Part shown: one piece after another, positions 37,560 through 59,137 of the stretch
Position numbering within the stretch: the stretch's first letter is position 1
Layout: each line of letters starts with the position of its first letter
Assembly: GCF_018446385.1 (NCBI RefSeq)
Contig: NC_056004.1
Span: forward strand, 33,486,492 to 33,550,491
Direction: 5' to 3'
From: Zingiber officinale
Taxonomy: Eukaryota > Streptophyta > Magnoliopsida > Zingiberales > Zingiberaceae
DNA length: 64,000 nt
Made by a program: the position numbers and the translations under genes
The notes under the pieces: model-generated
The model's database searches: none
Seen by the model: the letters and a program-made list of their open reading frames with translations, nothing else
Told to the model about the DNA's origin: nothing

Positions 37560-37562
37560 GGC

Positions 37563-37762
37563 CACTACAAGAAAAACTCTCATAGACATCGGTGGAACAA
37601 CAACAGTTTTAAGCAAAAACCGATGTCTTTGAGTATTTTACACCGATTTTTCCAAAAATCGGTGTCTATGAGCGCAGATTTTTCACTCATAGACATCGGT
37701 TTTTTAGCCGATGTCTATGAGCGCCTTTTTTTTGTTAATAGACACAGGTTTTAACAGCGGTT
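37563..37762 (+). repeat. CACTA left TIR and subterminal repeats
   Basis: TIR 37563-37593, then repeated CATAGACATCGG / CCGATGTCTATGAG motifs in both orientations to about 37760. Confidence 0.85.
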
Positions 37763-38806
37763 TTTAAAATCCGGTGTTAATGAACCAAAAAAAAATAATT
37801 TAATTTTTCCACCAGCCAAAATTTACAACACTTCACAAAGTTCCCTCCAAACCTAAACCAATATCGTGCCCCTTCTCTCAGCCTAAACCTAAACCTAAAC
37901 CTCCGACCATCTCTCTCAGCCTCATCTCCCTCTTCCCCTTCCTGAATCTCTTCCCCTTCCTGGATCGACACCCCTTCCTCTGCCGATTAGGATCAAAACC
38001 ACCTGCTTCGGTCCTGTTAGTTAGTTACTTTATTTTCATTGTCAAGTAACATCAGATTTAAGTTAGTTACTTTATTTTCATTGTCTTTAAAGGACTACTG
38101 TTATTATATATTTTCCTGGTTTCTTGTCATGGTTATTCCTTATCCTCTATCCTTTATGTACTTTCTTTTGCTTTAGATGCTAGAACAAAAAGCAAACTAA
38201 TGCTTTGATTGAGGTTATGAAAATTCATAATTTTTTGTGCTCCAGAGACAAATTAATTCTTAGCGATGGATTTGGGTTCAATTCCATCAATAAGAAAAAT
38301 GAAAAACAGTACTAGACATGATTTTTGTTTAAAAATTCATGCGGGCTATGAAGAATGCTCCTAAACAAGGAGACAACAATGTTAAACAAACATGTTAACA
38401 ACATTTAACATCAAAATAGTGTTGTAAATACAGAAATTGATTTTCCTCATTATTATTCTTCTTCTCTGAACTTGGGATAAAAGCTACTGAGGTTCCTACA
38501 CAATTGGGAGACTTTGCAAAACCAAAGTAACTAATTTATTAGGTTGAAATGATAGATAGATGAATATTATGGATACTGTTGTAAGAAGAATACTATTGTA
38601 AGAAGAATATTTACAAAACCAACGTGTAAAATTCAACGTGTGTTGGAGCTAATATTTGTAAATATCTGAAGAGTTGAACTTTACAATAAATTAGATGTGA
38701 CGCGAATTGTGGTACTTGGTGCATCAAGTGGTGTATAAGTTATTTGACATATTACTATTGAAGAGTCAAAGGATTTCTCAATTTCATTCTTAATTTAAAC
38801 AAGACA
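37763..38806 (+). other. CACTA core, left part: possible captured promoter/5' UTR
   Basis: A CT-rich stretch (about 37840-37985) with three CCTAAA units at 37881-37902 looks like a plant 5' UTR. It is followed by intron-like AT-rich sequence with a duplicated GTTAGTTACTTTATTTTCAT (about 38018 and 38062). 38512-38600 duplicates material from the right end (58585-58690). The sequence runs up to the A4 insertion site. The assignment as UTR plus intron of the FPP fragment is inference. Confidence 0.45.
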
Positions 38807-38811
38807 TTTTT

Positions 38812-40654
38812 TGTTGGGTTTTTCGGGCCGCGAAAACCGCGTTTTCACGTCGCGGAAACCCCGAATCACCCAAGCCACTGGATCTCGTGCGAAGGATAGA
38901 TTTCAAAATTTTACATGTACGAGTTTCTACTTAGATCTACTTCTAGATCTACATGAAGAAAAGGTTATACCTTTGAAGCGCGCCCTTCGCGAATCCCGCT
39001 CGTCCAAGGTGCCGGATCTCTAGACCGTCAAGCATACGGTCCTCTAGAAGTATCCACACGAACAATCCTTGATGGAGAAGACCAAACAAAGGTGTGCTAG
39101 CACCTTGTCTTGTTAGGCCAAGTGAGGAGGAGAGGGAGAAGAAAGAGCTCCAAGAGGAAGAAGATGTGAATGCACTTGAATGAGAAAAATGAATTCACTT
39201 CCCATTCAAAAGTGGCCGGCCACTTCCCAAGTGTAACCCCCAAATTTTGCATTAAGTGCAATTAATGTGAAGCCATTAAAGAGAATGGCTTTGTAACTTC
39301 CATGAGGTGGCACCCCATGATGATGTGGAGTAACATCATTAGTCCACATCAATGCCAACTCACCAATGAGGTGGCATAAAGTCAAGTCGAACTTGACTTT
39401 TATCTTCCTCTCAAGTTAAGACAAACTTGACTTAATCTCTCTCATGGTTGATCTAATCCAACCATTTGATTCAAGCCAATTTAATATAATGAATCTAATT
39501 CATTTAATTAATTGATTCAATGAGTCATAATCTAAATTAGACTCATTGAACACATGAATCAACTTGAGTCCAACTCAATTAGCCCAATTAGGATTACTCT
39601 TAATCCAATTTGATTCATCAAATGAATCTAATCCTCTTAGTTCATCATATGAACCTAATCTCCATCTAATTGTCCTTAGTGTGTGACCCTATAGGTTCTT
39701 GTAATGTTGGCAATGCCCCTAAACCCATTTAGGAGCATAAGTAATGAGCGGTATCTAGCAACACATCATTACTACCCAAGTTACAAGAATGTTGAGATCC
39801 AACATCACCTTGTGACTACTAATTGTGACTCCTCACAATATATGACAAGTGTCCTTCTATCCTAGACATCTAGATTGATCAATGTGAGGCATAGACAGTG
39901 TCATCCTCTGACCAATCTAAATCTTGAACTCCAAGTATACTCACTCAATCAAATGAGCTCAATATCTCATATTGACTCATTTGGGCATGGACATGCACTT
40001 CGTGGTCTCACTCTATCAAGAATATCGATGTCTCTCCCGTCATATAGGAGGGATAGATCCCATCTACATCACTCACATCCCTCCGCATAATTTGTTACAT
40101 ACCCAGTAATCGCCTTTATAGTCCACCCAGTTACGGGTGACGTTTGACGAAACCAAAGTACATAACTCCTTATGTAGGGATCCATGGTGACTTCAGGTCT
40201 AAGGACTGGTAGTCATACTAATAGCCACATGAGAAAGTATATGACACTCATATAACGATCCATGATACTTTCTCATGGCGGGCCATTCAGTATACATTCT
40301 CCAATGCATACCCATGTGTCAACTTGATATCTCTATATCCATGACTTGTGAGATCAAATCATCGAGTTGACCTACATGCTAGTCTTATTGCATTAACATT
40401 GTCCCTGAATGTTAATACTCGACTAGGAATGATTAAGAGTAGTGTTCCCTATATCATCTCACTATCGGTTCAACTAACCGATTGATATAGGTGAGAACCG
40501 TCTACTCAAGGACGTTATTATACTTAATTTATTTGGCACCAATACAAGTAAGTATAATAACCAAAAACCAAATACCTTTATTTATATATAGAATATGATA
40601 CAACAAGTCCAAAATACAATCATCAAATGATTGGCTCTAGGGCTCTAGCTAACA
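38812..40654 (-). repeat. Copia A4 3' LTR
   Basis: On the plus strand TGTTGGGTTTTTCGG to CTAGCTAACA, 1843 bp. Compared with the 5' LTR it keeps an extra block of about 21 bp near 38832 (CGCGTTTTCACGTCGCGG). Confidence 0.85.
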
Positions 40655-40668
40655 ATCTCCCACTAGCA
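40655..40668 (-). other. Copia A4 polypurine tract
   Basis: ATCTCCCACTAGCA on the plus strand, the reverse complement of the A1/A2 tract. Confidence 0.65.
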
Positions 40669-43600
40669 CTAGTGCCAATCAATGTAGGCTCTAAACCCAA
40701 ATGACCTAGTGTGACCATCATGCTTCCTCTGTGCCAAAGCCTTGGTCAAGGGATCTGCGATGTTAGCCTCTGTAGGTACTCTGCAAATCTTCGCATCTCC
40801 TCTCTCGATGATCTCTCGAATGAGATGGAAGCGTCGTAGTATGTGTTTGATCCGCTGGTGTGAGCGAGGTTCCTTCGCCTGTGCTATAGCTCCATTGTTA
40901 TCACAATAGAGCTCAATAGGGTCAGCAATGCTAGGAACCACCCCAAGTTCAGTGATGAACTTGCGAATCCAAACTGCCTCCTTTGCTGCCTCTGATACAG
41001 CAATATACTCGGCCTCTGTCGTGGAATCAACTACTGTGTCCTACTTCGAACTCTTCCAGCTCACAGCACCACCATTAATGCAAAACACGAACCCTGACTG
41101 CGATCTATAGTCATCCTGGTCGGTCTGGAAGCTAGCATCACTGTAACCCTTTACAGCTAGCTCATCATTGCCTCCATATATCAAGAAATATTCTTTAGTC
41201 CTTCTTAAGTATTTAATAATATTCTTGACCGCTATCCAGTGACTTTCATCTAGATCTGACTGGTATCTGCTCGTCATGCTCAAAGCATACGAGACATCAG
41301 GTCCAGTACATAGCATGGCGTACATGATCGATCCTATGGCTGAGGCATAAGGGATCTGATCCATGCGGTCTCTCTCCTCTCTAGAAGAGGGACCTTGAGT
41401 CTTCAAAAGACTCACGCCATGTGACATCGGCAGAAATCCCTTCTTGGAGTTCTGCATGGCAAACCGTAGGAGTATCTTGTCAATATATGTACTCTGACTT
41501 AGGTCAAGCAATCTCTTAGATCTATCTCTATAGATCTGTATCCCTAGAATGCGAGATGTCTCACCTAAGTCCTTCATTGAGAAGCAACTCCCTAGCCAGG
41601 TATTGATAGACTGAAGCATAGGGATATCCTTCCCAATGAGCAGTATGTCATCCACATACAATATGAGGAAGACAACTATGTCCCCTACAACCTTCTTGTA
41701 GACACAAGGTTCATCTTCGTTCTTGATAAAACCAAACTGTTTGATTGCATCATCGAATCGAAGATTCCAGCTCCGAGAAGCTTGCTTTAGTCCATAAATG
41801 GACCTATGCAGCTTGCATACTCTGCTAGTATGCTGTGGATCTACAAAACCCTCAGGTTGTGTCATGTACACATCCTCGAGTAGGTTTCCATTCAGAAACA
41901 CGGTTTTAACGTCCATCTGCCAGATCTCGTAATCATGGTAAGCTACAATAGCAAGCATGATCCGAATGGACTTAAACATCGCTACTGGAGAAAAGATTTC
42001 ATCATAGTCAATACCATGAATCTGCTTGAAACCTTTAGCTACCAAACGACCCTTATAGATAAGTCCATCCATGTCAGTCTTTCTCTTAAAGACCCACTTA
42101 CACTCAATGGGTTTTACTCCTTCAGGTGGATCAACCAAAGTCCATACTTGGTTGGTGTACATGGATTCCATCTCGAATCTCATGGCTTCTAGCCATTTCT
42201 CAGAATCTGGTCTCATCACAGCTTCCTGATAGGTGGTGGGCTCATCCTCTATGAGCACAATGTCATCATGGTCAGACAAGAGAAATGAGTATCTCTCAGG
42301 CTGACGACGTACCCTATCAGACCTGCGAAGAGGTATGTCTACTTGAACTGGTTGTTGTTCCTCAACTCCTTGTGGAACAACATCATCCACAACACTTTGT
42401 GGTTCCAGTTCAATTTCCATCGAGGCATCAGTGTTATTGTTCGCATCTTGAACTTCTTCAAGATCGAGCGCGCTCCCACTAGTCTTTCTAGAAACAAAGT
42501 CCCTTTCTAGAAGGACCCCAGTCTTTGCCACAACTACCTTGTGCTGACTGGGAATATAGAAGTAATATCCCTTAGTTTCCTTGGGATATCCTATAAAATA
42601 GCACTTGTCGGATTTGGGTCCTAACTTGTCTGAGACTTGACGTCGAACGTAAGCCTCACAACCCCAAATCCTCATGAAAGACACCTGGGCATCTTTCCCA
42701 GTCCATATCCTATATGGTGTCTTTAATTATCACGGCCTTGGATGGAATTCGGTTGAGTATAAAAGCTGCTGTGTCTAGAGCATAGCCCCAAAGGTATGTC
42801 GGAAGATCTATGTGACTCATCATCGATCGTACCATATCTAATAGGGTACGATTCCTCCTTTCGGACACACCATTCCACTGTGGTGTTCCAGGAGGAGTGA
42901 GTTGGGATAGAATTCGACACTCAGCTAGATAGTCACGGAACTCATGGCTAAAGTATTCTCCACCTCAATCGGATCGAAGTATCTTAATACTCTTGTCAAG
43001 CTGGTTCTGTACTTCATTCTTGAATTCTTTGAACTTTTCAAAGGATTCAGACTTATGTGTCATCAAGTACACATAACCATATCTACTGAAGTCATCAGTA
43101 AATGTGATGAAGTATATATAACCGCCTCTAGCAGCGACATTGAAAGGGCCACATACATCACTATGTATGAGTCCTAACAAATCAGTCGCTCTTTCGCTGT
43201 GCCCACTAAAGGGAGTCTTGGTCATCTTGCCTCGTAGGCATGACTCGCATATCTCATATGATTCAAAATCAAATGAGTCCAGCAAACCATCCTTATGGAG
43301 CTGGGATAAGCGCTTGTCATTTATATGACCTAAGCGACAGTGCCAGAGGTAGGTTTGGTTCATGTTATTTGACTTGAACTTCTTGGTATTTATGTTATAG
43401 ATAGGGCTCTCAAGGTCTAGAATATAGAGTCCGTTTATCATAGGTGCACTACAATAGAACATATCGTTTAAATAGACGGAACAACATTTGTTCTTTATTG
43501 TAAACGAGAAACCTTTCTTGTCCAAACAAGAAACTGATATAATGTTCTTAGTTAATGCAGGCACATAACAACAATCGACTAACTCTAGTACAAGCCCAGA

Positions 43601-44629
43601 GGGCAGAGATAAAAAGTAAGTCCCTACAGCAACAGCAGCAACCCATGCTCCATTGCCTACTCGTAGGTCCACCTCGCCCTTTGTCAATGCCCTGCTATTT
43701 CTCAGCGCCTGCACATCAGTACAAATGTGAGAAGCACATCCAGTATCTAATACCCATGATGTAGAAATAGATAGATTGACTTCTATAACATATATACCTG
43801 AAGTGGAAGTCTCACTTCGCTTCTTCTTAAGATCCTCCAAGTATACCTTGCAGTTCCTCTTCCAGTACCTGGTTTGACCGCAGTGGAAGCAGGTAGCAAC
43901 CTTGGCGACCCCTCCTTTAGGCTTCAGTGCCTTACCTTTGCCCTTGGTTTGGGACTTTCTCTTACCTTTGGGTTTGCCCTTGCCCTTGTGTTTCTGAACC
44001 ATCAGAACAGAGTGGGGCTTTGCCTTCTTAAGGTTCAGCTCAGCAGTTCTTAACATGCTAAGCAGCTCGGGCAGTGGCTTGTCAATCTCGTTCATATTGT
44101 AGTTTAGAACGAGTTGACTGTAGCTATCCAGCAAGGATTGCAAGATCAGGTCAGTAGCCAGCTCTTGGCCAAGAGGGAACCCCAACCTTTGTAGGTTCTC
44201 TATGTACCCAATCATTTTGAGTACATATGGGCCCACTGGAGCCCCGTCTGACATCTTGCACTGAAACAGTGCCCTTGAGATCTCAAATCTCTCATGTCTC
44301 GCTTGTCCTTGATACAGTTGACGAAGATGTTCAACCATATCGTAAGCGCCCATTAACTCGTGTTGCTTCTAAAGCTCAGAGTTCATGGTCGCGAGCATTA
44401 AACAAGACACATCTAATGCGTCATCTTGATGCTTCTTGAAAGCATCTCGGTCAGCTCGCGGGGCAGTGGCAGGAGGAGCCTCCGGAATGGGCTGCTCCAG
44501 AACGTACAGTTTACGTTCTTGGGTGAGAACTATTCTCAGGTTCCTGTACCAGTCCAGGAAGTTTGCTCCGTTGAGCTTGTCCTTCTCGAGGACAGATCGC
44601 AGGGAGAAGGTGTTCGTGTTCGACGTCAT
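40669..44629 (-). pseudogene. Copia A4 gag-pol pseudogene (nearly intact)
   Basis: Reads 44629 to 40669 on the minus strand: gag (MTSNTNTFSL start), protease D-T-G (43739-43747), integrase, RT with YVDD (41647-41658) and RNase H. Lesions: a TAG at 44369, a TGA in an Arg codon at 42965, a 4-bp insertion near 42725 that shifts the frame, and a TAG at 41041 before the RNase H tail (40941-40669). The zinc-knuckle His is Tyr (43865-43867) and the preceding Gly is Arg. 42684-41041 is one open stretch of 547 codons covering the end of integrase, RT and most of RNase H. Confidence 0.92.
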
Positions 44630-46125
44630 GGTAATCTACAACATAAATAAAAGTAGAAATAAATATCATATTCTTAATCATTTAATTAGGCCTTTAACTA
44701 AATGATGCTCCCACTGAATTCTATAATTCATGTGGGACAAGATCCACATCATACTAACCCTTGAGTTAGTTTTGGCTAATACGCCCAAGACTTAGTATAA
44801 TCGGTAGGTAACGATTACCAATTACATCTCTATGCAACTCTTATTTATAGGATAAAAATCCGCATTTATATTAAAACTCGAGTTAGCTTTGGCTAATATG
44901 CCCAAGAGTTAATATAAACGTGATTTTGACCTATCTACCAACCATTGGATAATGCTTATAGTTAAACTCGATCCAATTGAGTTAACTAGTTACTCAATCT
45001 AATTGAGTTGTACTCACCCATGCGTTGATAGGCAGGACCAAAATTGTCCCTCCGTACCCTACCAAGATAGTATGTGTTGCTCTGCTTTGACAGATTCCAC
45101 AACAACATGCGATCGAGGTAGTGGTAGGTATCACGGCATGGTAGGCATTACGAGTTGACGTGATTTAGATCTAATCTAAATGATGATGCGTATCAAATAC
45201 TTGATTTAGATCTAATCTAATCGTGGGGTGCATCATGTGCACGATTTAGATCTAATCTAATCGCTAGGCACTAATTAACTACTTAATTAAACATGCATCA
45301 CATACATATAAGCAATTAATTAAATTATTTTGTGATTGTGTCATAGCCCTACTACGATCTTCTCAAGCCAATAAGAAGATCGGATGGTCAACCTAAGGTC
45401 AACAGCTTCTCAAGCTTCTTCCTTTGACCACCTTGTGTTGCTCGCGCCCTCCTCGTAACTCCGTCTCGTGTGGACCTTCCACCACTTCAAAATTACATTA
45501 CAATTTTGAAACTCGAGTTACATTCGAGTCTAAATCTAATTTACAACCAGAATATAAGAGAAAGGCACGACGCGCAGGTCGTGAAAATAAAATAAATAAA
45601 AAGAATAAATACAGCACGCACACCACATAATGGCACGCAGGCCGTATTATGAATTACAACACATTTCCAAATCCAATTTGGGTCGTTTGGGGCATGACTA
45701 TCACAAAATTAATATATAATTCAAAATTAAATATTTCTATAATTTTTTGTAATTTTTTTTATAATTTTACAATTTTTACGGGTACAATTTCTCGGCGGTT
45801 CCGTTTAGCGGTTTTCGGGCGCAATCGCGGAACGAATCCCCATGCGGGGCCAGGGGGAGTACCCCTACCCGCGATCTAACCATCGCGAGGGTTCCTTTGC
45901 GATCTAACAGCGCCTTAGCCCGCTGTCCCAAAAAGATTTGGGGCGAAACCAAGCCGTTTTGGAAAAATCTTCCCGGTAGCGGAAGCCTACAAGTGCCGAA
46001 ACACTTGTGCTTCACTTCTACGAGAAAATTACCCATAAAAACTATAAAAAACCTAAATTTACAGAAAATCACAGAAGCTATTTTTTTCATAAAATCAAAA
46101 ACAAACTTGTACACGCCTTCGCACG
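44630..46125 (-). other. Copia A4 5' leader
   Basis: Untranslated, colinear with the A2 leader; the GC-rich structured block is at about 45800-45895. Small ORFs here are not supported as genes. Confidence 0.6.
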
Positions 46126-46139
46126 TGGCTCTTATACCA
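46126..46139 (-). other. Copia A4 primer-binding site
   Basis: TGGCTCTTATACCA on the plus strand; the reverse complement is TGGTATAAGAGCCA, one base from the LTR end. Confidence 0.75.
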
Positions 46140-46140
46140 C

Positions 46141-47121
46141 TGTTGGGTTTTTCGGGCCGCGAAAATCCCGAATCACCCATGCCACTGGATCTCGTGCGAA
46201 GGATAGATTTCAAAAATTAACATGTACGAGTTTCTACTTAGATCTACTTCTAGATCTACATGAAGAAAAAGTTATACCTTTGAAGCGTGCCCTTCGCGAA
46301 TCCCGCTCGTCCAAGGTGTCGGATCTCTAGACCGTCAAGCGTACGGTCCTCTAGAAGTATCCACACGAACAATCCTTGATGGAGAAGACCAAACAAAGGT
46401 GTGCTAGCACCTTGTCTTGTTCGGCCAAGAGAGGAGGAGAGGGAGAAGAAAGAGCTCCAAGAGGAAGAAGATGTGAATGCACTTGAATGAGAAAAATGAA
46501 TTCACTTCCCATTCAAAAGTGGCCGGCCACTTCCCAAGTGTAACCCCCAAATTTTGCATTAAGTGCAATTAATGTGAAGTCATTAAAGAGAATGGCTTTG
46601 TAACTTCCATGAGGTGGCACCCCATGATGATGTGGAGTAACATCATTAGTCCACATCAATGCCAACTCACCAATGAGGTGGCATAAAGTCAAGTCAAACT
46701 TGACTTTTATCTTCCTCTCAAGTTAAGACAAACTTGACTTAATCTCTCTCATGGTTGATCTAATCCAACCATTTGATTCAAGCCAATTTAATATAATGAA
46801 TCTAATTCATTTAATTAAATTGATTCAATGAGTCATAATCTAAATTAGACTCATTGAACACATGAATCAACTTGAGTCCAACTCAATTAGCCCAATTAGG
46901 ATTACTCTTAATCTAATTTGATTCATCAAATGAATCTAATCCTCTTAGTTCATCATATGAACCTAATCTCCATCTAATTGTCCTTAGTGTGTGACCCTAT
47001 AGGTTCTTGTAATGTTGGCAATGCCCCTAAACCCATTTAGGAGCATAAGTAATGAGCGGTATCTAGCAACACATCATTACTACCCAAGTTACAAGAATGT
47101 TGAGATCCAACATCACCTTGT
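46141..47121 (-). repeat. Copia A4 5' LTR, inner part
   Basis: Starts TGTTGGGTTTTTCGG; interrupted after CTTGT (47117-47121), the target duplication of the nested element. Confidence 0.85.
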
Positions 47122-47721
47122 TGTTAGGATCTTTCGTACGGCTAGAGAGGGGGGTGTGAATAGCCGCCCCAAATCGCTCTCGTTTCTTCCTACAATTAGG
47201 TTAGTCGCAGCGGAAAATACAAAGAAACGAAAGAGAAGAAAACCAAACCTTAACACGAGGATGTAACGAGGTTCGGAGATTAGGGCTCCTACTCCTCGGC
47301 GTGTCCGTAAGGTGGACGAGTCCGGTCAATCCGTCGGTGGATGAGTCCCCGGAGAACCGGCTAATACAATATACTCCTTGTGGGTGGAGAAACCTCGCCA
47401 CAAACGTTTGCAACAGCAAACAAAGAGTACAAGAGCAGTAAGAAAAGCAATACAATATGAATACAATCGCACTCTACCAATTGCTTGCTTTCTTGTCGAC
47501 TGGAGGTGAAGCAGCAACTTCACGCGACGCCTACAACAGCAGGAACCCAGCCGGAAGCTCACGCGAAGCTTTGGAGGAGCTCAACAAAGCTCAAGCACAG
47601 CAGCACTTAGAACAGCAAGAAGGAAGAAGGAGATCTTTTCGCACAGAAGATGCCTCGATCCTTTATACCTGCGAAGAAGAAACAGTGAAGAAACTAACCG
47701 TTGTGTCGCAACGGCTAGAAC

Positions 47722-48055
47722 CCCGATCGGTCTGACCGATCGGCCTAAGCGCATGAGGCTTGTTTGTCACCGATCGGTCCCGCCGATCGGTGTCGCGATC
47801 AAGCCACGATCGGTGCGTGGACCGATCAGAACCTCGATCGGTCCATAGCCGATCGGCGCTCCTCACGCCATCGATCTATTCCGATCGGTCCGATCGAGGC
47901 CATGAAATGGATCGGTCGGCAGACCGATCCACGGTTTTCTTCTCGCGAGGTTCCCGATCGGTCTCCGGACCGATCAGGGAACACCCTGATCAGCACGCCT
48001 GATCGGTCACCGGACCGATCGAGGGAAGTTCTGATCGGATCGGTCACCAGACCGA
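47722..48055. repeat. GATCGGTC/GACCGATC palindrome cluster, 3' LTR
   Basis: At least eight inverted pairs with short loops, for example near 47722, 47957 and 48001. ORFs rich in DRS/RSV dipeptides across it are produced by the repeat. Confidence 0.8.
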
Positions 48056-48540
48056 TCCAACTCCTCGGTTTAGAGTGCCCTCTCTAACCTAGTTCGGAGA
48101 ACGAGCTACCGAGCCCTCTCCGACTCCATATGCCAAGCTTCACTCACTTGGACTTCTCAACACCAGATGTCCGATCACCCTTGATCCATCTGGATTTTCC
48201 CTTGCCCGGCTTCACTCACCAGGACTTTCCACCTGGCTTCACTCACCAGGATTTCACACTGCCTAACATCCCAGTTAGGACTTTCTCATTCACCTAGCTT
48301 CACTCACTAGGATTTTCACCTGGCTTCACTCTCCAGGCTTCACTCACCACGACTTTTCCGTCTCCCTGGCTTCCCTCACCAGGACTTTCCCTTGCCTGGC
48401 TTCACTCACCAGGACTTCCCAACTGCCTAACATCCCAGTTAGGACTTTCCACTGCCTGGCTTCACTCACCAGGACTTTCCAACTGCCTAACATCCCAGTT
48501 AGGACTTTCCACTGCCTGGCTTCACTCACCAGGACTTCTC

Positions 48541-48810
48541 CGTGCCAAGTCTTCATACTTGGACTTTTCCCGTGCCAAGTCTCCATACTTGGACTTTTCC
48601 CGTGCCAAGCTCCCTGCTTGGACTTTTCCGTTGCCAAGTCTCCATACTTGGACTTTTTCCCGAATCAGGTCAACTCAAGTCTCAACCAGGTCACCTTGAC
48701 CAAAGCTTGCACCCTCATTCTCCCAAGTCTCCATACTTGGACTTTTCCAGTGCCAAGCTCCCTGCTTGGACTTTTCCGTTGCCAAGTCTCCATACTTGGA
48801 CTTTTTCCCG
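48541..48810. repeat. CCAAGT/ACTTGG hairpin tandem, 3' LTR
   Basis: Units GCCAAGTCTCCATACTTGG and GCCAAGCTCCCTGCTTGG, each followed by ACTTTTCC, in fewer copies than in the 5' LTR; interrupted around 48661-48725 by AGGTCAACTC-type sequence. Confidence 0.8.
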
Positions 48811-49057
48811 AATCAGGTCAACCAGGTCAACCTTGACCTACGGTTGCACCAATAATCTCCCAAACATCTATTCTTGTCCCATATCAAGAATAGAACTCTC
48901 TCACGAGTGTCAAACATCAACATGCAACACAACTAGGTCAACCTTGACCTAAGGTTGCACCGACAATCTTCCCAAGTCAAACATCAAAATACAACTCGAG
49001 TCAAGTCAACTCGAGTCGGGTCAACCAGGTCAACCTTGACCTAAGGTTGCACCAACA

Positions 49058-49075
49058 ATCTCCCCCTTTTTGATG
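49058..49075 (-). other. SIRE-like polypurine tract
   Basis: ATCTCCCCCTTTTTGATG on the plus strand, adjoining the 3' LTR. Two further copies lie at about 49231-49257 and 49361-49384. Confidence 0.7.
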
Positions 49076-50846
49076 TTTGACAAAACCATAATCAAGTTAG
49101 GTTAACCCGATAACCTAACTTAGGTTTTCCAACCATCTTCCAATGTCCAATGTTCTTTCCTTGAACATTCTCTAGACATTCTCCCCTTAGGTTAACCTGA
49201 TAACCTAACTTGGGTTCTCTAATAATTCTCCCCCTTTTTGACACACATCAAAAAGTATTCCAATGTTCTTCCTCGAACATTCCTTGACAATCTTCCCCTA
49301 GCTTAGGTTAAACCGATAACCTAACTTGGGTTCTCCAATAATTCTCCAATGAACACTCTCCCCTTTTTGACACACATCAAAAAGATAAAGAAGGTATCAA
49401 GGTCAAGAGTTTCTTCCTAATGAAAGTCCCATACCTTTCATTGAAACTCTTATTTTCCCTTGATACTAAGCTCAACAATCCACTTAGTGATAATCCCATA
49501 TCACTAATCCTCAAGGAGTAAAACTCCCCCTAAAAGTCAACTCCCTTGACTAATAGTTAAAACTCCCCTAAAGGCCAACTCCCCCTTGAAATTTCAGACA
49601 TCCAGTCGAATTTCAGCAATTCAGCACGCACTATCGGTCACCAGACCGATCAGGAACCCCTTGGATCGATTCCCAGATCGATCCTCTTTCTGGATCATCA
49701 CTGGATCGGTCCAGCGACCGATCCACACTCTGAATCAGAGATTTCTGATTTTTCCTCTCCCGAAATTCGAAACCCCTAATAAATTTCAGAAAATTCGAAA
49801 AATTGTGAAATTTTGAGGATACATTCCTCATATCATACACTATCATGGAAAAATAATTTTCTATGAAAATAGTTTCCATTTTCAAATCTTGATACAAAGT
49901 TAAAAAAACTTTGAAATAGTTCAAGTTTTAACTCAACTTTGTATCACAAAGTTCAATGATGAATGCTATCACTAGGAAAGCTTCATCAAGGTTTTTCAAA
50001 TCAATTTTAAAATGCTTTTAAAACCATTTGAATTTAGGACCATAATCTTAGGGCTAGATGTACATGACTTGTACACAAGCTTTCCCTATGATCCTTAGTT
50101 TCTTGAATTAGGCTCATCTAGATACAAGAACTATGCACCTTGATCCTAACTCATGATCCTAATATCTCACACACATCTAAAGTGTATCAAACCACATTCA
50201 AGTCAATTTGATGTGAGATATGGGTTAAGGTCAACTTAGGCTAAGTTCTCATGCATTTTCTAAACATCAATTTGATCTCAATATCAAAATGTGTTTTTCC
50301 TTAAATCAATTACATTGATTATAATGCAAGAGATGATGACATGGCATATAATGATATCATAAGTAAAAACATGTGCCAATGTCATGATGTCATGGCATAA
50401 AGTTTAAAAACTTAAATAAAGCATGACATATAAACTAGCCTAGCACTATCATGACATTTCAAATGATGATAAAACTAAACATGATGTCATGACATGTCAT
50501 ATGGCAAACAACCATGGTAAGTTAACACAAATAAAATACCTAGATTACCTATCTAAGTATCCTTAATCTCTTAGTTAACTTAAATTCTAATCCTAGATTG
50601 CCCATATATCCCTAAGAGAAAACCAAAATCCCAATTATGGTTTTTCTCTAGGTTTCTTAAATTGTGCCAAATAAGATTAAAATATTCTCACTTTGGCACA
50701 CTTTACTCTTCCAAGGAGTGAATGATAAAGATTATCCCCTTTCATTTTCAAAGGTTCCCAAAACCTTGAAAATGCTCCTTGAGTGTCAATTTCCTCAAAG
50801 TTGGGTTAACTACCCTTCTTATTGGAGTTGACACTCTCTAACCCAT
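49076..50846 (-). other. SIRE-like interior without pol
   Basis: No pol homology on either strand. Near the LTR are repeats of GGTTAACCTGATAACCTAAC and TTTTTGACACACATCAAAAAG. 49632-49725 carries three GATCGGTC/GACCGATC-type pairs like those in the LTRs. 50330-50520 is rich in ATGATGTCATGACAT-type inverted repeats. Confidence 0.55.
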
Positions 50847-51590
50847 TTATGGGGTAGAGAAGATGCTCCTAGGAACCCAATACCTATTTGAGCTCATTGG
50901 GTTCACTAAATATTCACTAGGGATAACTTCCCTAGCAACCCTCCTAATGACCCTCTTAGGCTTTAAAGCCTTGGTCATTTGGGTCTCATCAAGATCAACT
51001 CTAGGGGTGACTCCCCTTGTGACCTTGGTGGTGGTCTTCCTAGCCCTAGGTTTTGTTCCATAATCGAATGGAACATTATGATAGGTGGGCTTGACCATTT
51101 GGGACTTAGGTTTGTGACCCAAACCTTTCTTGTCCTTGGGCTTTGGTTTTTGACCCTTAAACCCTAGAGATGACTTCTCCATGTTTTTAAGAGCCTTTTC
51201 TAAATTATCAAGTCTTGACCTCAAGACTTGATTTTCCCTCTCTAATACCTCAAGTTTTAATTTGTCATTTTCTCTTGAGATATTCCTAGGCATGTGTCTA
51301 GTCTTTTTGGGATTTCTACCTAGGTTTTCCTTAACTTTAGAAGCGTTAATCCTAGGGTTGGTATTTCTAGTGTTATCCTTACCTAGGCTAACATGTTTAG
51401 CTCCTAAGCACATGTATTGGTTCCTAAAGTTAACATGCTTATCATTATTAACAATTGCAACAAAACTACTAGCATGAGTTTTATTAGAATTGCAATAATG
51501 AACCTTAGAGGTTACCTTAGGGTTTGCCTTAGCTCCCCTATCGTTGTGCCCGGTCTCTTGCCCTTGTGAGGTTGCCTCCCCCTCGGACAA
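50847..51590 (-). CDS. Gag-associated ORF2 of the SIRE-like element
   Basis: 247 codons, minus strand. Basic protein; residues about 107-140 show a heptad pattern (ENDKLKLEVLERENQVLRSR) consistent with a coiled coil. The C-terminus, NRYWVPRSIFSTP, then stops where an autonomous element would continue into the protease. It overlaps the end of ORF1 by 79 bp in a different frame, so it is probably the 3' half of an original gag separated by a frameshift. It contains no enzyme motif. Confidence 0.6.
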   Translation of the reverse strand: MSEGEATSQGQETGHNDRGAKANPKVTSKVHYCNSNKTHASSFVAIVNNDKHVNFRNQYMCLGAKHVSLGKDNTRNTNPRINASKVKENLGRNPKKTRHMPRNISRENDKLKLEVLERENQVLRSRLDNLEKALKNMEKSSLGFKGQKPKPKDKKGLGHKPKSQMVKPTYHNVPFDYGTKPRARKTTTKVTRGVTPRVDLDETQMTKALKPKRVIRRVAREVIPSEYLVNPMSSNRYWVPRSIFSTP

Positions 51591-52318
51591 TGGCTCCTAT
51601 AGTGTCCCTTTTGCTTGCATTGGAAGCACACGATGTGCTCCTTGCCCTTGCGTTTCGGGACTCCGGCTTCCTTGACCTTTGGCGCCGGTGGAGTCTTTCT
51701 TACCCTCTTTGGACACTTACTCTTGTAGTGCCCAAATTCCCTACACTCAAAACACATTATATGCAATTTACTTGAACTTAAAGTGTTTGAGTTACCTAGG
51801 ATTGAGGATGAATGGATGTTCTCTTCTTCATCCCTCCCGGAGGTAGAAGCTTCTTCTTCGTGCTCCGATCTTGAAGAAGAACTCACTTCCTCTTCTTCCT
51901 TGGATGTTGAGTAGCCCTCAACTCCCAACTCGCTCCCTCCATGATGTGAGCTACTTGGCTCACTAGGCTCCTCTTCATGGCTTGAAGTGGAACTCTCCTC
52001 ATGGTACTTGGCCAAGTTATCCCACAACTCCTTGGCATTGTTGTATTCACCTATCTTACGCAAAATATTAGTAGGTAATGAAAATTCAATTGTTTTAGTT
52101 ACCTCATTGTTGATCGTTGATTGATGGACTTGTTCCTTTGTCCACTTGTTCTTCTCTAGAGGCTCTCCTTCTTTATCCATTGGAGGAGTAAAACCTTCTT
52201 GTACACAAAACCAGTTCAACATATTAGTCCTAAGAAAATACATCATCCTTACCTTCCAATATGTGAAGTTGTCGTTGTAGAAGGGTGGAATCGTGATGTC
52301 TTCTCCGAATTGATCCAT
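51512..52318 (-). CDS. Gag ORF1 of the SIRE-like element, two zinc knuckles
   Basis: 268 codons from MDQFGEDITIPP on the minus strand. The frame extends to 52429, but that extension lies across the PBS into the LTR, so 52318 is the better start. The N-terminus (YWKVRMMYFL, KELWDNLAKYHE) resembles plant copia gag of the UBN2/DUF4219 style. A Ser/Glu-rich linker follows, then two CCHC knuckles at about residues 189-202 (CFECREFGHYKSKC) and 231-244 (CFQCKQKGHYRSHC). Both keep all four zinc ligands, unlike three of the four Copia-A copies. The gag core between the N-terminal part and the linker looks shortened. It would bind element RNA in virus-like particles; particle proteins from another element would be needed for movement. 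Confidence 0.75.
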   Translation of the reverse strand: MDQFGEDITIPPFYNDNFTYWKVRMMYFLRTNMLNWFCVQEGFTPPMDKEGEPLEKNKWTKEQVHQSTINNEVTKTIEFSLPTNILRKIGEYNNAKELWDNLAKYHEESSTSSHEEEPSEPSSSHHGGSELGVEGYSTSKEEEEVSSSSRSEHEEEASTSGRDEEENIHSSSILGNSNTLSSSKLHIMCFECREFGHYKSKCPKRVRKTPPAPKVKEAGVPKRKGKEHIVCFQCKQKGHYRSHCPRGRQPHKGKRPGTTIGELRQTLR

Positions 52319-52364
52319 CTCTAGCTTTGCTCCCACGGGTGTTGATCCGACGAAGAGCAACCTT

Positions 52365-52376
52365 GCTCTGATACCA
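52365..52376 (-). other. SIRE-like primer-binding site
   Basis: GCTCTGATACCA on the plus strand; the reverse complement, TGGTATCAGAGC, matches the initiator tRNA-Met site. Confidence 0.8.
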
Positions 52377-52980
52377 CTTGTTAGGATCTTTCGTACGGCT
52401 AGAGAGGGGGGTGTGAATAGCCGCCCCAAATCGCTCGATTCTTTCTACAATGTCGAGTTAGCGCAGCGGAAATAAAACAATAGAAGCGACAAGGAAAGAA
52501 ATCAAACCTCAAACTCAATGGATGTAACGAGGTTCGGAGATTAGGGCTCCTACTCCTCGGCGTGTCCGTAAGGTGGACGAGTCCGGTCAATCCGTCGGTG
52601 GATGAGTCCCCGGAGAACCGGCTAATACAATATACTCCTTGTGGGTGGAGAAACCTCGCCACAAACGTTTGCAACAGCAAACAAAGAGTACAAGAGCAGT
52701 AAGAAAAGCAATACAATATGAATACAATCGCACTCTACCAATTGCTTGCTTTCTTGTCGACTGGAGGTGAAGCAGCAACTCCAACGCCTACAACAGCAGG
52801 AACCCAGCCGGAAGCTCACGCGAAGCTTTGGAGGAGCTCAACAAAGCTCAAGCACAGCAGCACTTAGAACAGCAAGAAGGAAGAAGGAGATCTTTTCGCA
52901 CAGAAGATGCCTCGATCCTTTATACCTGCGAAGAAGAAACAGCGAAGAAACTAACCGTTGTGTCGCAACGGCTAGAACCC

Positions 52981-53282
52981 TGATCGGTCTACAGACCGAT
53001 CAGCCTAGGCGCATGAGGCTTCTGTTTGTCACCTGATCGGTCGGTCTGGGGATCGGTCTGATCGGTCGTGACGACCGATCAGATTGGATCTCGATCGGTC
53101 CATAGACCGATCGAACTCCCTTTTCCCTTCCGCGCTATTATCACCTGATCGGTCCGCAGACCGATCAGATTGCACTAAGTGTGCTTCTGAGTGGTTCCTG
53201 ATCGGTCCCCGGACCGATCAGATTGCACTCAGTGTGCTACTGAGTGCCGCAGTATCACTGGATCGGTCACCGGACCGATCCA
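52981..53282. repeat. GATCGGTC/GACCGATC palindrome cluster, 5' LTR
   Basis: Inverted pairs such as TGATCGGTCT-AC-AGACCGATCA (52981-53002) and those near 53147, 53199 and 53261, with stems of 9-10 bp and loops of 2-4 bases. Confidence 0.85.
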
Positions 53283-53754
53283 ACTCCTCGGCTTAGAGTG
53301 CCCTCTCTAACCTAGTTCGGAGAACGAGCTACCGAGCCCTCTCCGACTCCATATGCCAAGCTTCACTCACTTGGACTTCTCAACACCGGATGTCCGATCA
53401 CCCTTGATCCATCTGAATTTTCCTTGCCGGCTTCACTCACCAGACTTTCCACCCGGCTTCACTCACCAGATTTCCACACTGCCTAACATCCCGATTAGGA
53501 CTTTCTCATTCACCTAGCTTCACTCACTAGGATTTTCACCGCTTCACTCACCAGATTTCCAATCTGCCTGGCTTCACTCACGTGAACTTTCCGTCTGCTG
53601 GCTTCACTCACGGGACTTTCCCCAGCTTCACTCACCGGGACTTCCCAACCGCCTAACATCCCGTTAGGACTTTCCCCGCTTCACTCACTGGACTTTCCAA
53701 ACGCCTAACATCCAGTTAGGACTTTCCATCACTTTCCTCACTGAGACTTCTCCG

Positions 53755-54045
53755 TGCCAAGTCTTCATACTTGGACTTTTCTCGTGCCAAGTCTCCATAC
53801 TTGGACTTTTCCCGTGCCAAGCTCCCTGCTTGGACTTTTCCAGTGCCAAGTCTCCATACTTGGACTTTTCGCGTGCCAAGCTCCCTGCTTGGACTTTTCC
53901 AGTGCCAAGTCTCCATACTTGGACTTTTCGCGTGCCAAGCTCCCTGCTTGGACTTTTCCAGTGCCAAGTCTCCATACTTGGACTTTTCCAGTGCCAAGCT
54001 CCCTGCTTGGACTTTTCCGTTGCCAAGTCTCCATACTTGGACTTT
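53755..54045. repeat. CCAAGT/ACTTGG hairpin tandem, 5' LTR (expanded)
   Basis: About eleven units of 26-27 bp alternating between GCCAAGTCTCCATACTTGG and GCCAAGCTCCCTGCTTGG, each followed by ACTTTTCC. Each unit is an inverted repeat, so both strands can form hairpins. ORFs on both strands across it are artefacts of the period. Confidence 0.9.
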
Positions 54046-54303
54046 TTCCCGAATCAGGTCAACCAGGTCAACCTTGACCTACGGTTGCACCAATAATCTC
54101 CCAAACATCTATTCTTGTCCCATATCAAGAATAGAACTCTCTCACGAGTGTCAAACATCAACATGCAACACAACTAGGTCAACCTTGACCTAAGGTTGCA
54201 CCGACAATCTTCCCAAGTCAAACATCAAAATACAACTCGAGTCAAGTCAACTCGAGTCGGGTCAACCAGGTCAACCTTGACCTAAGGTTGCACCAACACT
54301 TGT

Positions 54304-55144
54304 GACTACTAATTGTGACTCCTCACAATATATGACAAGTGTCCTTCTATCCTAGACATCTAGATTGATCAATGTGAGGCATAGACCGTGTCATCCTTTG
54401 ACCAATCTAAATCTTGAACTCCAAGTAGATTCACTCAATCAAATGAGCTCAATATCTCATATTGACTCATTTGGGCATGGACATGCACTTCGTGGTCTCA
54501 CTCTATCAAGAATATCGATGTCTCTCCCGTCATATAGGAGGGATAGATCCCATCTACATCACTCACATCTCTCCGCATAATTTGTTACATACCCAGTAAT
54601 CGTCTTTATAGTCCACCCAGTTACGGGTGACGTTTGACGAAACCAAAGTACATAACTCCTTATGTAGGGATCCATGGTGACTTCAGGTCTAAGGACTAGT
54701 AGTCATACTAATATCCACATGAGAAAGTATATGACACTCATATAACGATCCATGATACTTTCTCATGGCGGGTCATTCAGTATACATTCTCCAATGCATA
54801 CCCATGTGTCAACTTGATATCTCTATATCCATGACTTGTGAGATCAAATCATCGAGTTGGCCTACATGCTAGTCTTATTGCATTAACATTGTCCCTGAAT
54901 GTTAATACTCGACTAGGAATGATTAAGAGTAGTGTTCCCTATATCATCTCACTATCGGTTCAACTAACCGATTGATATAGGTGAGAACCGTCTACTCAAG
55001 GATGTTATTATACTTAGTTTATTTGGCACCAATACAAGTAAGTATAATAACTAAAAATCAAATGCCTTTATTTATATATAGAATATGATACAACAAGTCC
55101 AAAATACAATCATCAAATGATTGGTTCTAGGGCTCTAGCTAACA
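54304..55144 (-). repeat. Copia A4 5' LTR, outer part
   Basis: Resumes GACTACTAATTGTGAC as in the intact 3' LTR near 39815 and ends CTAGCTAACA. Confidence 0.85.
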
Positions 55145-55729
55145 TTTTTTTCATTGGCCTCTTAATTCAAGCTCTTTCTATGTTTCAGCAATTTGTGGGA
55201 ATCATGGGGAGCAAGACGTGGATATGGAATAGGAAGTCCACAGGGAAGAACATTGAGGTTAGCATTAATCAAATCATCTTTTTGATGGTTTATTACTGAT
55301 TTTTGCACAACTAATGTTTCAGTATAAACAATTCTCGGACTCAAAGATCGATATCTTCTATTATTGATTTTGATTGTTTATTACTGGTTGTTTATTGTTA
55401 ATTTTTTGGATTATAAATAAAGAAGGCAACAACTCATCAGTACCAAACAAATTTTCAGCTCTTCTAGACTGAGCATATGTCTCTTCTTATGTTGGGAATC
55501 AATTTGTAAATGCCTATGATTTCTCTCAGAAAGGGAAGACCCTGGAGTTGGAGAAATCTATAGAAAACTTGAACGAACAACTATCTTCTATCCGCAGCAA
55601 GTCCAATGCTAAAGATGATCTTTTGGCAAAGCAAGCAAAAGTAGCTGAGGAAGCAATTTCAGGTTAGATTTTTTTTTTTCCTTTCATTTTCTTCCCAACA
55701 CAAAAACTATGTTGTTTTAAGAACAAACC

Positions 55730-58421
55730 TGTTGGTTGCTACTCGGAAAACCTAGAGGTTCCACTGTACAAAAATTTGTACAAATGTCTGAACCTTTTCC
55801 TAGCTACCATGTGTTCTTTTAAATTAAATTTTGGATCGCCTGCGGAACTTAACACGTTTGATCCAAAACTTAATCTATTTGTTCTTTTAGGTTTTGACTT
55901 GGATCTCCTGCGGAACTTAACACGTTCGACCCAAGTCACCTTAAGTTATTAATTCCATTAAATATTAATTTCCATAATTGGTTCCCAGTACTGACGTGGC
56001 GAGGCACATGACCTTCTTGGATATGGGAGCAACCACCACCGACTAGACAAAACCTTTTATGGAAAGCTAATATTTAATTTCCTAAAATAACTTTAGGTTA
56101 ACCGAAAAGAACAATCAAATCACAAGGAAAAGAAAAACAAAAGAACACTATATCGAAAACAAATTCGAAACTCTAGAATCGTATGCCTCTTGTATTTAGT
56201 ATTATTTCCAAAAATAACTAGTATGATGCGGAAAGAAAAAATATTAGTTATACCTTTTAGAAAAACCTCTTGATCTTCTACCATATTCCTCTTCTAACCT
56301 CGGACGTTGTGTGGGCAACGATCTTCCGAGATGAGAAATCACCAAACACCTTCTCCTTTCTTCAAATTTCGGCCAAGCACAAAGCTTCCAAAAGATGAAG
56401 ATCTTTTCCACCAACCAAGCTCCAAGGGATGTAGGCTTTCTCTCCTTCTTACTCAAGCTAGATCCGGCCACCAATTAAAACTCCATAAGCATGAAGAGGT
56501 TCGGCCACAAAGAGAAGAAGAAGAGAAGAAGGAAGGGCCGGCCACACCACCAAGGAAGAGAGGAAGAAAAATAGAATGGAGTCGTTCACCTTGAAGCCTC
56601 CTTTATAATCCTTGGTCTTGGCAAATAAGGAAAATTTTAATAAAAATTTCCTTAATTATTTTTCCATTGAAAAGAAAAATTATTTAATTAAAAATAATTT
56701 TCTTTTTCAAATACAATGGCCGGCCACCTCAAGCCCCGAATCAAGGAAAGTTTTAATTAAAACAAGAATTAAAACTTCCTCATTTGTTTCCGGAAATTTA
56801 TAAAAATTTCTCCAATAATTTAATCCCTTCATGATTGGTTTATAAAAAGGAAATTTAATAAATTAAAATATTTCTTTTAAACATTTGGATAAAAAGAAAG
56901 TTATCTCTAAAAATTAAAATCTCTTTTAATCTACAAATAAGGAAAGATATCAAGTCTTTTCTTAATCTTTTGTAGAAACTAATAAAAGAGAATTATTAAT
57001 TTTTAAACTTTCTTTTAAATCATGAACATGGTTAAAAAGGAAAGTTTTCTTAAAATTTAAAATCCTCCTTTAATCAACAAATAAGGAAAGATTTCAAATT
57101 TTAAACTCTCTTTTAAACATGTAGATGATTTACAAATAAGGAAAGTTTTTACCAAAAATTAAAACCATCCTTTTAAACCACAAATAAGGAAAGAGATTAA
57201 TCTCTTCTTTTAATCTTTTGTAGAAAGCTATAAAAGGAAATTTTTAATTTTTAAACTCTCTTTTAAAATCATGATATCCACATAAGAAATAATTTTAATA
57301 AAAATCCTTTTTAATATTCTAGTGGCCGGCCACCTAAGCTTGGGACCCAAGCTTTGGCCGGCCACCTAAGCTTGGGACCCAAGCTTTGGCCGGCCACCTA
57401 CATGACTCATCCACTTGATCTTGGCCGGCCCTAGCTTGGGTTCCAAGCTAGCTTGGCCGGCCCCATTGGATGGGTAAGAAGGTGGGTATGCGGTGGGTAT
57501 AAATCTCTATATACTAGAGGCTACGATAGGGACCGAGAGGAGGAATTGGTTTTGGTCTCCCGATGAAATTAAGCATCCCGTGTTCGCCCCGAACACACAA
57601 CTTAATTTCATCAATAATAATTCATTCCACTAAAGAACTATTATTGAACTACCGCACCAATCCCAAATTACATTTTGGGCTCCTTCTTATTATGAGTGTG
57701 TTAGTCTCCCTGTGTTTAAGATAACAAATGTCCACTAATTAAGTAAGTTACTGACAACTCACTTAATTAATATCTAGCTCCAAGAGTTGTACCACTCAAC
57801 TTCATCATCATATCGGACTAAGTCCACCTGCAGGGTTTAACATGACAATCCTTATGAGCTCCTCTTGGGGACATTCTCAACCTAGATTACTAGGACACAG
57901 TTTCCTTCTATAATCAACAACACACACTATAAGTGATATCATTTCCCAACTTATCGGGCTTATTGATTCATCGAACTAAATCTCACCCATTGATAAATTA
58001 AAAAAATAAATATCAAATATATGTGCTTGTTATTATATTAGGATTAAGAGCATACACTTCCATAATAACTGAGGTCTTTGTTCCTTCATAAAGTCAGTAT
58101 AAAAGGAACGACCTCAAATGGTCCTACTCAATACACTCTAAGTGTACTAGTGTAATTATATAGTTAAGATAAACTAATACCTAATTACACTACGACCTTC
58201 CAATGGTTTGTTCCTTTCCATCTTGGTCGTGAGCTACTGTTTATAATTTATAAGGAACCAATAACATGATCTTCTGTGTGTGACACCACACACCATGTTA
58301 TCTACAATATAAATTAATTGAGAAACTACATTTATCATAAATGTAGACTTTGACCAATGTGATTCTTATTTCTAGATAAATATTTATACCAAAAGCTAGG
58401 CTTTTAGTATACACTCTAACA
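55730..58421 (-). repeat. Solo LTR, 2.69 kb, in the second intron of the FPP fragment
   Basis: On the plus strand TGTTGGTTGCTACTCGG to ACACTCTAACA, flanked by AAACC on both sides (55725-55729, 58422-58426). It carries no internal region, so it arose by LTR-LTR recombination. On its own strand it begins TGTTAGAGTGTATACTAAAA. Contains GGCCGGCC sites and AAGCTTGGG-A-CCCAAGCTT inverted repeats. Small ORFs at 56244-56803 are not supported as genes. Confidence 0.88.
57324..57463. repeat. GGCCGGCC plus AAGCTTGGG hairpin tandem
   Basis: GGCCGGCC starts at 57324, 57356 and 57388, a 32-bp period; between sites stands a 9-bp stem inverted repeat with a 1-base loop. A variant with CTAGCTTGG-GTT-CCAAGCTAG follows at about 57431-57452. 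Confidence 0.88.
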
Positions 58422-58586
58422 AAACCATGCATGATCTACTTGTTAGGATGGGAAAAAGCAGAAGCTCGAGCTCTGGCTTTACAGAAACAATTGGATGATG
58501 CCTTGCTTCAGAAGAAAATGGCAGAAGAAAGATTAGTCGAACAGGATACAGAATTACAAGAATTCAGGCAGCAACTAATTTATTAG

Positions 58587-59134
58587 TTGTAAATACTGTT
58601 GTAAGAAGAATATTAGTTACTTTGCAAAACCAAAGTAACTAATTTATTAGTTTGTGTATTTTATGGATACTGTTGTAAGAAGAATATTTATGTAATTTGT
58701 GAATATTTGTGTATTTTATAGATACTGTTGAATGAAGAATATTTGTGTAATTTGTGAATATTTGTGTATTTTTTTTGTTACTGTTTCGGAAATCAAATTT
58801 GTACTGTTAAAAAATACTGATATTACATCGGTTTTCCACCGCTGCAAAATCGGTGTTATTAACTAATATTACATCGGTCGTATACCGCTGCCAAAACTGG
58901 TGTTATTAACATATAATATTACATCGGTTGTACACCGTTGATGAAACGGTGTTGTTAAGTGATACTACACCGGTTAATAACCGATTCGAACACCGGTGTC
59001 GTTAAGTGATACTACACCGGTTTTAAACCGATGTCTAAAATGACAGACTTTTTACATCGCCTTCATAGACATCGGTCGAAAATGTAATAGACACCGGTGA
59101 AAAACCGATATCTATGAGAGTTTTTGTTGTAGTG
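58587..59134 (+). repeat. CACTA right subterminal region and TIR
   Basis: Directly after the FPP stop come repeated TACTGTTGTAAGAAGAATATT units (58598, 58670 and a variant at about 58728). From 58820 there are many ACATCGGT, ACACCGGT and ACCGATGT copies. The TIR is 59104-59134. Confidence 0.8.
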
Positions 59135-59137
59135 GGC

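Follow-up and report, generated by a model that had tools for sequence, protein, structure and literature searches.

Positions 37563–59134 of a 64,000-nucleotide stretch of ginger (Zingiber officinale) are one insertion of a CACTA transposon, which is very probably a non-autonomous element of the Pack-CACTA kind carrying part of a host gene for a filament-like plant protein (FPP). The stretch, called the window below, is C19:33486492–33550491 (contig NC_056004.1) of an assembly with 211 contigs. Features of a non-autonomous CACTA element are present, namely CACTA terminal inverted repeats (TIRs), a 3-bp target-site duplication (TSD) and no transposase of its own. So are features of a Pack-CACTA, as host coding DNA lies between the TIRs, source genes stand elsewhere (FPP on C14/C13, an amino-acid transporter on C21) and there are multiple, apparently mobile copies. 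A preliminary description of this DNA had proposed a Pack-type (transduplication) arrangement with FPP as cargo, which is borne out by 33 copies, a donor elsewhere and an empty allelic site.

Element boundaries and the empty allele

The ends of the element and its target site are as follows.
37560–37562, unstranded: left TSD, GGC, read at the junction; the empty allelic site on C20 has a single GAC triplet
37563–37593, forward strand: 5′ TIR, CACTACAAGAAAAAC..., matching the 3′ TIR at 29/31; genome-probe matches begin nearby
59104–59134, reverse strand: 3′ TIR, matching the 5′ TIR at 29/31
59135–59137, unstranded: right TSD, GGC, read at the junction

Both TIRs begin with CACTA. On recomputation, 37563–37593 again matched the reverse complement of 59104–59134 at 29 of 31 bases, and the GGC duplication was found on both sides, as previously described. 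The best match of the left TIR was 18–20 in 10 mononucleotide shuffles (rest of the window). A 261-bp probe over the left end (37540–37800) gave 41 matches in the genome (best 40 of 3257 first-look candidates). Leaving aside the window itself and one short 77% match, these start at probe bases 13–25, within ~11 bases of 37563.

The published ginger assembly is haplotype-resolved, with 22 pseudochromosomes in 11 pairs, according to the available part of its report (PMC8342452). We infer that consecutive contigs are chromosome pairs, so that C20 is the partner of C19. A query of 250 bp from each flank, joined across one triplet, matched C20:26252347–26252850 over bases 1–500 at 97%, and its only two further matches in the genome were the C19 flanks themselves. 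The sequence at the C20 site, CTAGATGACATTGCC, has a single triplet, GAC instead of GGC, and shows no footprint. Because the flanks are joined there across one triplet, the whole block is one insertion that is absent from the paired chromosome.

The same site bears on a resident FPP pseudogene hit by two separate CACTA ends, the case that the preliminary description had named as its refutation. The FPP exons do sit between CACTA ends and in order, but the empty site on the paired chromosome of the same assembly refutes a resident pseudogene unless it is misassembled. In addition, 33 copies share the same FPP/transposon 3′ junction and intact donor alleles stand on C13/C14, leaving a resident pseudogene practically no probability.

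The haplotypes C19 and C20 differ here by a 21.6-kb insertion (C20:26252347–26252850 versus window 37313–59387).

The captured FPP fragment and its donor

The FPP cargo is a 924-bp genomic fragment with introns, from the 5′ part of a host FPP gene. Window 38620–38812, 55144–55729 and 58422–58577 align to bases 115–307, 301–887 and 883–1038 of the donor stretch (L063; C14:94219450–94220500, reverse strand) at 95.3%, 96.8% and 98.1%, respectively. The two nested insertions that separate these pieces have their 5-bp TSDs in the overlaps. In a longer copy (L043), the same stretch of 924 bp is 96.5% identical to the donor across exons and introns. The pieces and exons in the window, placed by these alignments, are listed below.
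38620–38811, forward strand: FPP fragment part 1, donor intron 1
55145–55729, forward strand: FPP fragment part 2, with the end of intron 1, exon 2 with ATG, intron 2, exon 3 and part of intron 3
55189–55257, forward strand: FPP exon 2, with 15 nt of 5′ untranslated region (UTR), then ATG 55204 to 55257 (MGSKTWIWNRKSTGKNIE)
55530–55662, forward strand: FPP exon 3, AG/GT borders intact
58427–58577, forward strand: FPP fragment part 3, with the end of intron 3 and the start of exon 4 (from 58447)

The fragment begins within donor intron 1 and ends within exon 4, where transposon sequence takes over with ATTTATTAG, a stop. When spliced and translated, the consensus of the copies matches PF05911 at 8.2e-17. 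Three correctly bounded exons had been claimed; exons 2 and 3 are indeed fully bounded, but the third (58447–58577) has its acceptor and is broken off inside donor exon 4.

The full-length parent gene, for which a search had been suggested, was found intact, with an exon-4 frame of 801 residues on C14 and 799 in the C13 allele. The alleles of a paralogue on C7/C8 also have frames of ~800 residues. One of them (L059, C8:99687300–99697200) was at first taken as the parent and was rejected because C14/C13 carry full FPP genes at 98–99%; the C8 paralogue then served as an outgroup to polarise substitutions.

The suggested alignment of introns to the parent gave matches through exons and introns alike, the pieces being 95–98% identical. 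With introns present at similar identity, the source was not spliced mRNA, and the fragment was evidently taken up as genomic DNA. Pack-MULEs have 8–11 bp TSDs and Mutator TIRs, and Helitrons have neither TIR nor TSD and end in TC...CTRR. Acquisition by retroposition of FPP mRNA, or by a Helitron or Pack-MULE, has next to no chance here: retroelements, Helitrons and Pack-MULEs also carry gene fragments, as the available part of one report has it (PMC1947982), but the introns speak against spliced mRNA, and a 3-bp TSD with CACTA TIRs does not fit a MULE or Helitron.

The transposon core of the window copy

Without the nested elements, the core is 2537 bp, counting one copy of each nested TSD. 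No transposase frame is found in it, the longest stop-to-stop frame having 81 residues, in keeping with the ~2.5-kb core without transposase described before. Around the FPP fragment it consists of the following parts.
37563–38015, forward strand: 5′ terminal and subterminal region common to the family, 88–96% identical to fetched copies having the 5′ end (best 40 of 3257 candidates)
38016–38051, forward strand: probable internal-deletion junction, with ~25 bp of filler repeating adjacent downstream sequence (38005–38075 compared with the same sites in fetched copies)
38052–38563, forward strand: segment X, present in FPP-bearing and FPP-less sister elements (best 40 of 340 candidates)
38564–38619, forward strand: 3′-subterminal-like sequence directly upstream of the FPP fragment and repeated downstream (39/39 exact duplicate in L043)
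58578–59134, forward strand: transposon 3′ region, which by reading of the sequence gives the FPP frame its in-frame stop (58584–58586)

For segment X, 13 of the 40 scored matches end at base 512, and no donor gene was recognised among these best 40 of 340 genome candidates. The 5′-UTR-like stretch of the preliminary description, if its CT-rich 5′ part was meant, did not hold up: it lies in the terminal region common to other copies, gives no match to the donor stretch, and appears to be transposon sequence.

Copies across the genome

Other copies with the same exons, another suggested search, were readily found. An exon-4 probe gave 37 genome matches (all 37 candidates scored). At least 33 of them, including the window, are copies, passing the FPP/transposon junction (bases 1–171). 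Two stop at base 148, the capture breakpoint (donor alleles on C13 and C14), and two cover only bases 6–147 at 83–84% (paralogue alleles on C7 and C8). We examined 21 of the 33 at length, 20 over 7.9 kb each plus the window, and read the FPP fragment in 9 more, making 30 of 33.

Besides the window’s own, both TIRs were recognised in 9 of the 21 copies, with equal triplets at the two ends in 8. Shared 3′ flanks were not found among the 21, so no allelic pair was seen among them. Within L042 and L058 there are stretches that match the joined flanks of L043 with a 3-bp overlap at 77–84% and are related empty sites for it. In the longer copies no transposase was found, the longest frame being 137–193 residues in 9 copies, with no match among 10 frames of L043.

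Other captured host-gene fragments

Further host sequences were tallied over the 21 copies, counting the transporter when half or more of its fragment was present and the MADS-box when some of its exon was. The amino-acid-transporter fragment is in 15 copies, a MADS-box exon in 16, a BOP1-like fragment in 6 and a second FPP exon (FPP-a) in 4. Three arrangements are prominent: with FPP-a (4), with BOP1 (6), and with the MADS-box but neither of these (6). Donors at 97–98% were found for three of five further cargo pieces (transporter, FPP-a and BOP1-like).

The transporter piece matches PF01490 at 1e-6, and L043 3848–4686 is 98.1% identical to a C21 stretch (L062) over 839 bp with introns, both ends of the fragment lying inside exons. 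A search of solved structures with this piece gave nothing useful. FPP-a (L043 2490–2596, MDRRSW...) has 18 genome matches. Seven of these are read as transposon copies; two at 98%, on C4 and C3, are read as donor alleles because FPP frames follow ~3 kb downstream; and nine at 74–81% are probably further FPP genes. The fragment whose name we take to be BOP1 has 13 genome matches of 19 scored, which we read as nine transposon copies, two donor alleles on C1/C2 at 97% of residues and two paralogues at 79%; in Pfam it gave weak WD40 matches only, below the cut-offs. L040, the one copy in which GT14 was looked for, has a GT14-like piece on its reverse strand (PF02485 at 2.1e-10).

The MADS-box exon matches PF00319 at 8.2e-24. 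Five of the 21 copies (L039, L044, L053, L058 and the window) lack a match to it where they were read. For the first four, matches lie upstream on the same strand, ~8–14 kb from the FPP exon (C15:85308075, C5:9376328, C2:101693872 and C21:53056916, respectively), and are probably in the same elements, beyond nested insertions. Near the window copy there is none among the 150 matches listed.

Three smaller observations concern this cargo. In L040 (~2280–2420), a short frame, RECDVLILDTGLGSAENQARVKELLHVEESKLEEDEG, stands upstream of the BOP1-like exons and may derive from the same or a further host gene. L043 holds two different FPP family members in one element (2490–2596 and 5731–6654), each including the exon that has the start codon. 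Likewise, in L041 the MADS-box fragment begins at its ATG exon.

Order of acquisition and origin of the window copy

A sister element at C3:140748419–140750422 has matches to the MADS-box, transporter and segment X, and no FPP match. It departs from the FPP-bearing form at L043 base 5674, as seen in the junction stretch L064; L061, considered before as the FPP-less junction, carries other sequence there and was rejected. In L043, a 39-bp piece of 3′ subterminal sequence stands as an exact duplicate (39/39) on either side of the FPP fragment. This duplicate and the C3 sister would fit FPP uptake within the 3′ subterminal region after the MADS-box and transporter. It may also be that the C3 sister lost its FPP fragment instead of preceding the capture. 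As for mechanism, the duplicate fits both template-switching gap repair and fusion of neighbouring insertions, the latter a published model of acquisition in the available part of PMC8903248.

In the window copy, the 5′ end is joined to segment X through ~25 bp of filler that repeats sequence from beside the break; therefore we read this copy as a deletion derivative, probably an internally deleted member of the family. It is rather unlikely that the window’s short form, made up of 5′ end, X, FPP and 3′ end, is the older one, to which the MADS-box, transporter and others were added later elsewhere. The window copy is the sole one of the 21 with both ends and no other cargo, and short forms could be ancestors. 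But the C3 sister has MADS-box, transporter and X without FPP, so these fragments need not postdate FPP, and filler of that kind is expected after deletion. Its distance from the consensus, 1.42%, is about like that of other copies, and the upstream MADS-box matches of L039, L044, L053 and L058 leave the window copy as the odd one out.

Several points weigh against the reading of the family as Pack-CACTA elements with this history. One of the nine two-ended copies, L057, has unequal triplets (TGA/CGG), and five of the 21 (L039, L044, L053, L056 and L058) show no 5′ end in the stretch read. An autonomous partner was not found, none of the matches to the transposase domain PF02992 (best 150 of 6544 candidates) being tied to the family. 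For the MADS-box, the best genic matches, on C1 and C2, reach only 85% and 84% of residues (best 150 of 465). The deletion in the window copy is read from comparison with other copies, and the mobility of the family from DNA sequence.

CACTA transposase is very abundant in this genome, as the best 150 of 6544 first-look candidates for PF02992 were all above the cut-off.

Nested insertions in the window copy

Three insertions lie within the element.
38812–55144, reverse strand: Ty1-copia long terminal repeat (LTR) retrotransposon, nested, with TG...CA ends, TSD TTTTT at 38807–38811 and 55145–55149, and LTRs 98.1% alike
47122–54298, unstranded: second LTR element, inside the 3′ LTR of the copia element, with TSD CTTGT and its own LTRs 85.5% alike; junctions read
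55730–58421, unstranded: solo-LTR-like insertion, TG...CA, with TSD AAACC at 55725–55729 and 58422–58426

The copia and solo-LTR-like elements break the captured FPP fragment. The copia element has RVT_2 (4.9e-68), GAG-pre-integrase (2.2e-17) and rve (5.9e-5, under its cut-off) domains. Its LTRs have 33 mismatches over 1819 aligned positions, which corresponds to ~0.7 million years with the rate of the ginger paper, 1.3e-8 per site per year (PMC8342452). The element at 47122–54298 should not predate its copia host as an insertion, despite its 85.5% LTRs, and its LTR divergence is a poor clock here. These LTRs hold repeats spaced ~30 bp. A repeat scan of the window reports repeats of the nested elements only.

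Age, decay and selection

Over 913 aligned bases, 17 substitutions and 11 gap columns separate the transposon consensus from the donor. Polarised by the C8 outgroup, 10 of the substitutions are assigned to the donor and 2 to the transposon, while 5 are undecided. Individual copies are 0.44–1.97% from the consensus, with means of 1.22% (n = 21) and 1.25% (n = 30), giving ~0.9–1.0 million years at the above rate. The spread thus came soon after capture.

In the frame, the 21 copies have 64 non-synonymous (8 stops) and 32 synonymous changes, where 67.0 (8.5 stops) and 27.6 are expected from the non-coding spectrum. The captured frame would therefore appear to have evolved without selection since the copies spread. 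Among 127 non-coding changes in these copies, 86 are G to A or C to T, as methylated silent DNA would be expected to show.

That the captured frame is both expressed and maintained by selection is very unlikely. In the consensus, this frame has 108 codons, a start codon, two introns and a stop provided by the transposon, and it is intact; the frame is fully open in 14 of 30 copies, 11 of which also keep all four splice dinucleotides (12 and 9, respectively, among the first 21), and the ratio of non-synonymous to synonymous rates (dN/dS) is 0.36 against the C8 paralogue. However, this ratio is mostly gene-to-gene divergence because the true donor is only ~2% away, and the changes within the 21 copies fit neutrality, stops included. 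Open frames are a sign of youth, not necessarily of usefulness.

A proposed history of the element

The most probable course, as a Pack-CACTA element, would begin with an ancestor already holding MADS-box and amino-acid-transporter fragments. The FPP fragment would then have been taken up at the DNA level, inside the ancestor’s 3′ subterminal region, either through fusion of neighbouring elements or through template switching during gap repair. Transposase from autonomous CACTAs may have moved and multiplied the element about 1 million years ago. The window copy would have lost its other cargo through internal deletion with filler DNA, and two LTR-type insertions would later have broken its FPP fragment.

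It is also conceivable, though unlikely, that the chimeric elements are transcribed and that the transcripts or small RNAs act on donor genes or yield new short coiled-coil proteins. These elements carry 5′ portions of FPP and MADS-box genes that include the start codon, and a fair share of the copies keep their splice sites intact. Such a role would extend to insertions, like that in the window, that distinguish one haplotype of a clonal crop from the other.

Comparison with known systems

As a record of gene capture by CACTA elements, the family is unusually complete. Donor genes that are still intact have been placed, several captures lie in layers within the family, and a sister copy allows one acquisition to be ordered. 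There are also enough copies for a selection test, and for the window copy the paired chromosome has an empty allele. The family offers material for tests of how CACTA elements acquire genes. Literature joining CACTA with filament-like plant protein, or Pack-TYPE with Zingiber, was not found in a search that subscription papers mostly fell outside.

Kawasaki and Nitasaka (2004) reportedly described, going by the title, En/Spm-related elements (Tpn1) that capture host genes in Japanese morning glory. In Chenopodium, CACTA elements with captured gene pieces, one from the flower-development gene AP2, appear in the available part of PMC8978399. They are like the ginger elements in carrying host gene pieces and differ in that the pieces described there are short, e.g., 80 bp, upstream of the TAD domain in the coding part. 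Tgm-Express1 of soybean is a 5.7-kb CACTA element with five host gene fragments and usable splice sites, according to the accessible portion of PMC1947982. It and the ginger element are alike in carrying several host gene fragments. Tgm-Express1, as described there, sits in a gene intron and its exons were shown to be spliced, whereas the ginger family has many copies and is known from DNA sequence.

Closest are the Pack-CACTA elements of Arabidopsis and maize, some with cargo from several loci, as the available part of PMC8903248 describes them, and the Pack-TYPE work of Catoni et al. (2019), known here through parts of PMC8903248 and PMC13317346. The ginger elements share with them the CACTA TIRs, the lack of transposase, host DNA inside, multi-locus cargo, and conserved ends with an acquired interior. 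They differ in their cargo of FPP, transporter, MADS-box, BOP1-like and GT14 pieces and in that one FPP fragment recurs in at least 33 copies, with three main cargo arrangements where copies were read at length. The case thus clearly adds a new example to a known route of gene shuffling in plant genomes, and leaves knowledge of the Pack-CACTA kind unchanged.

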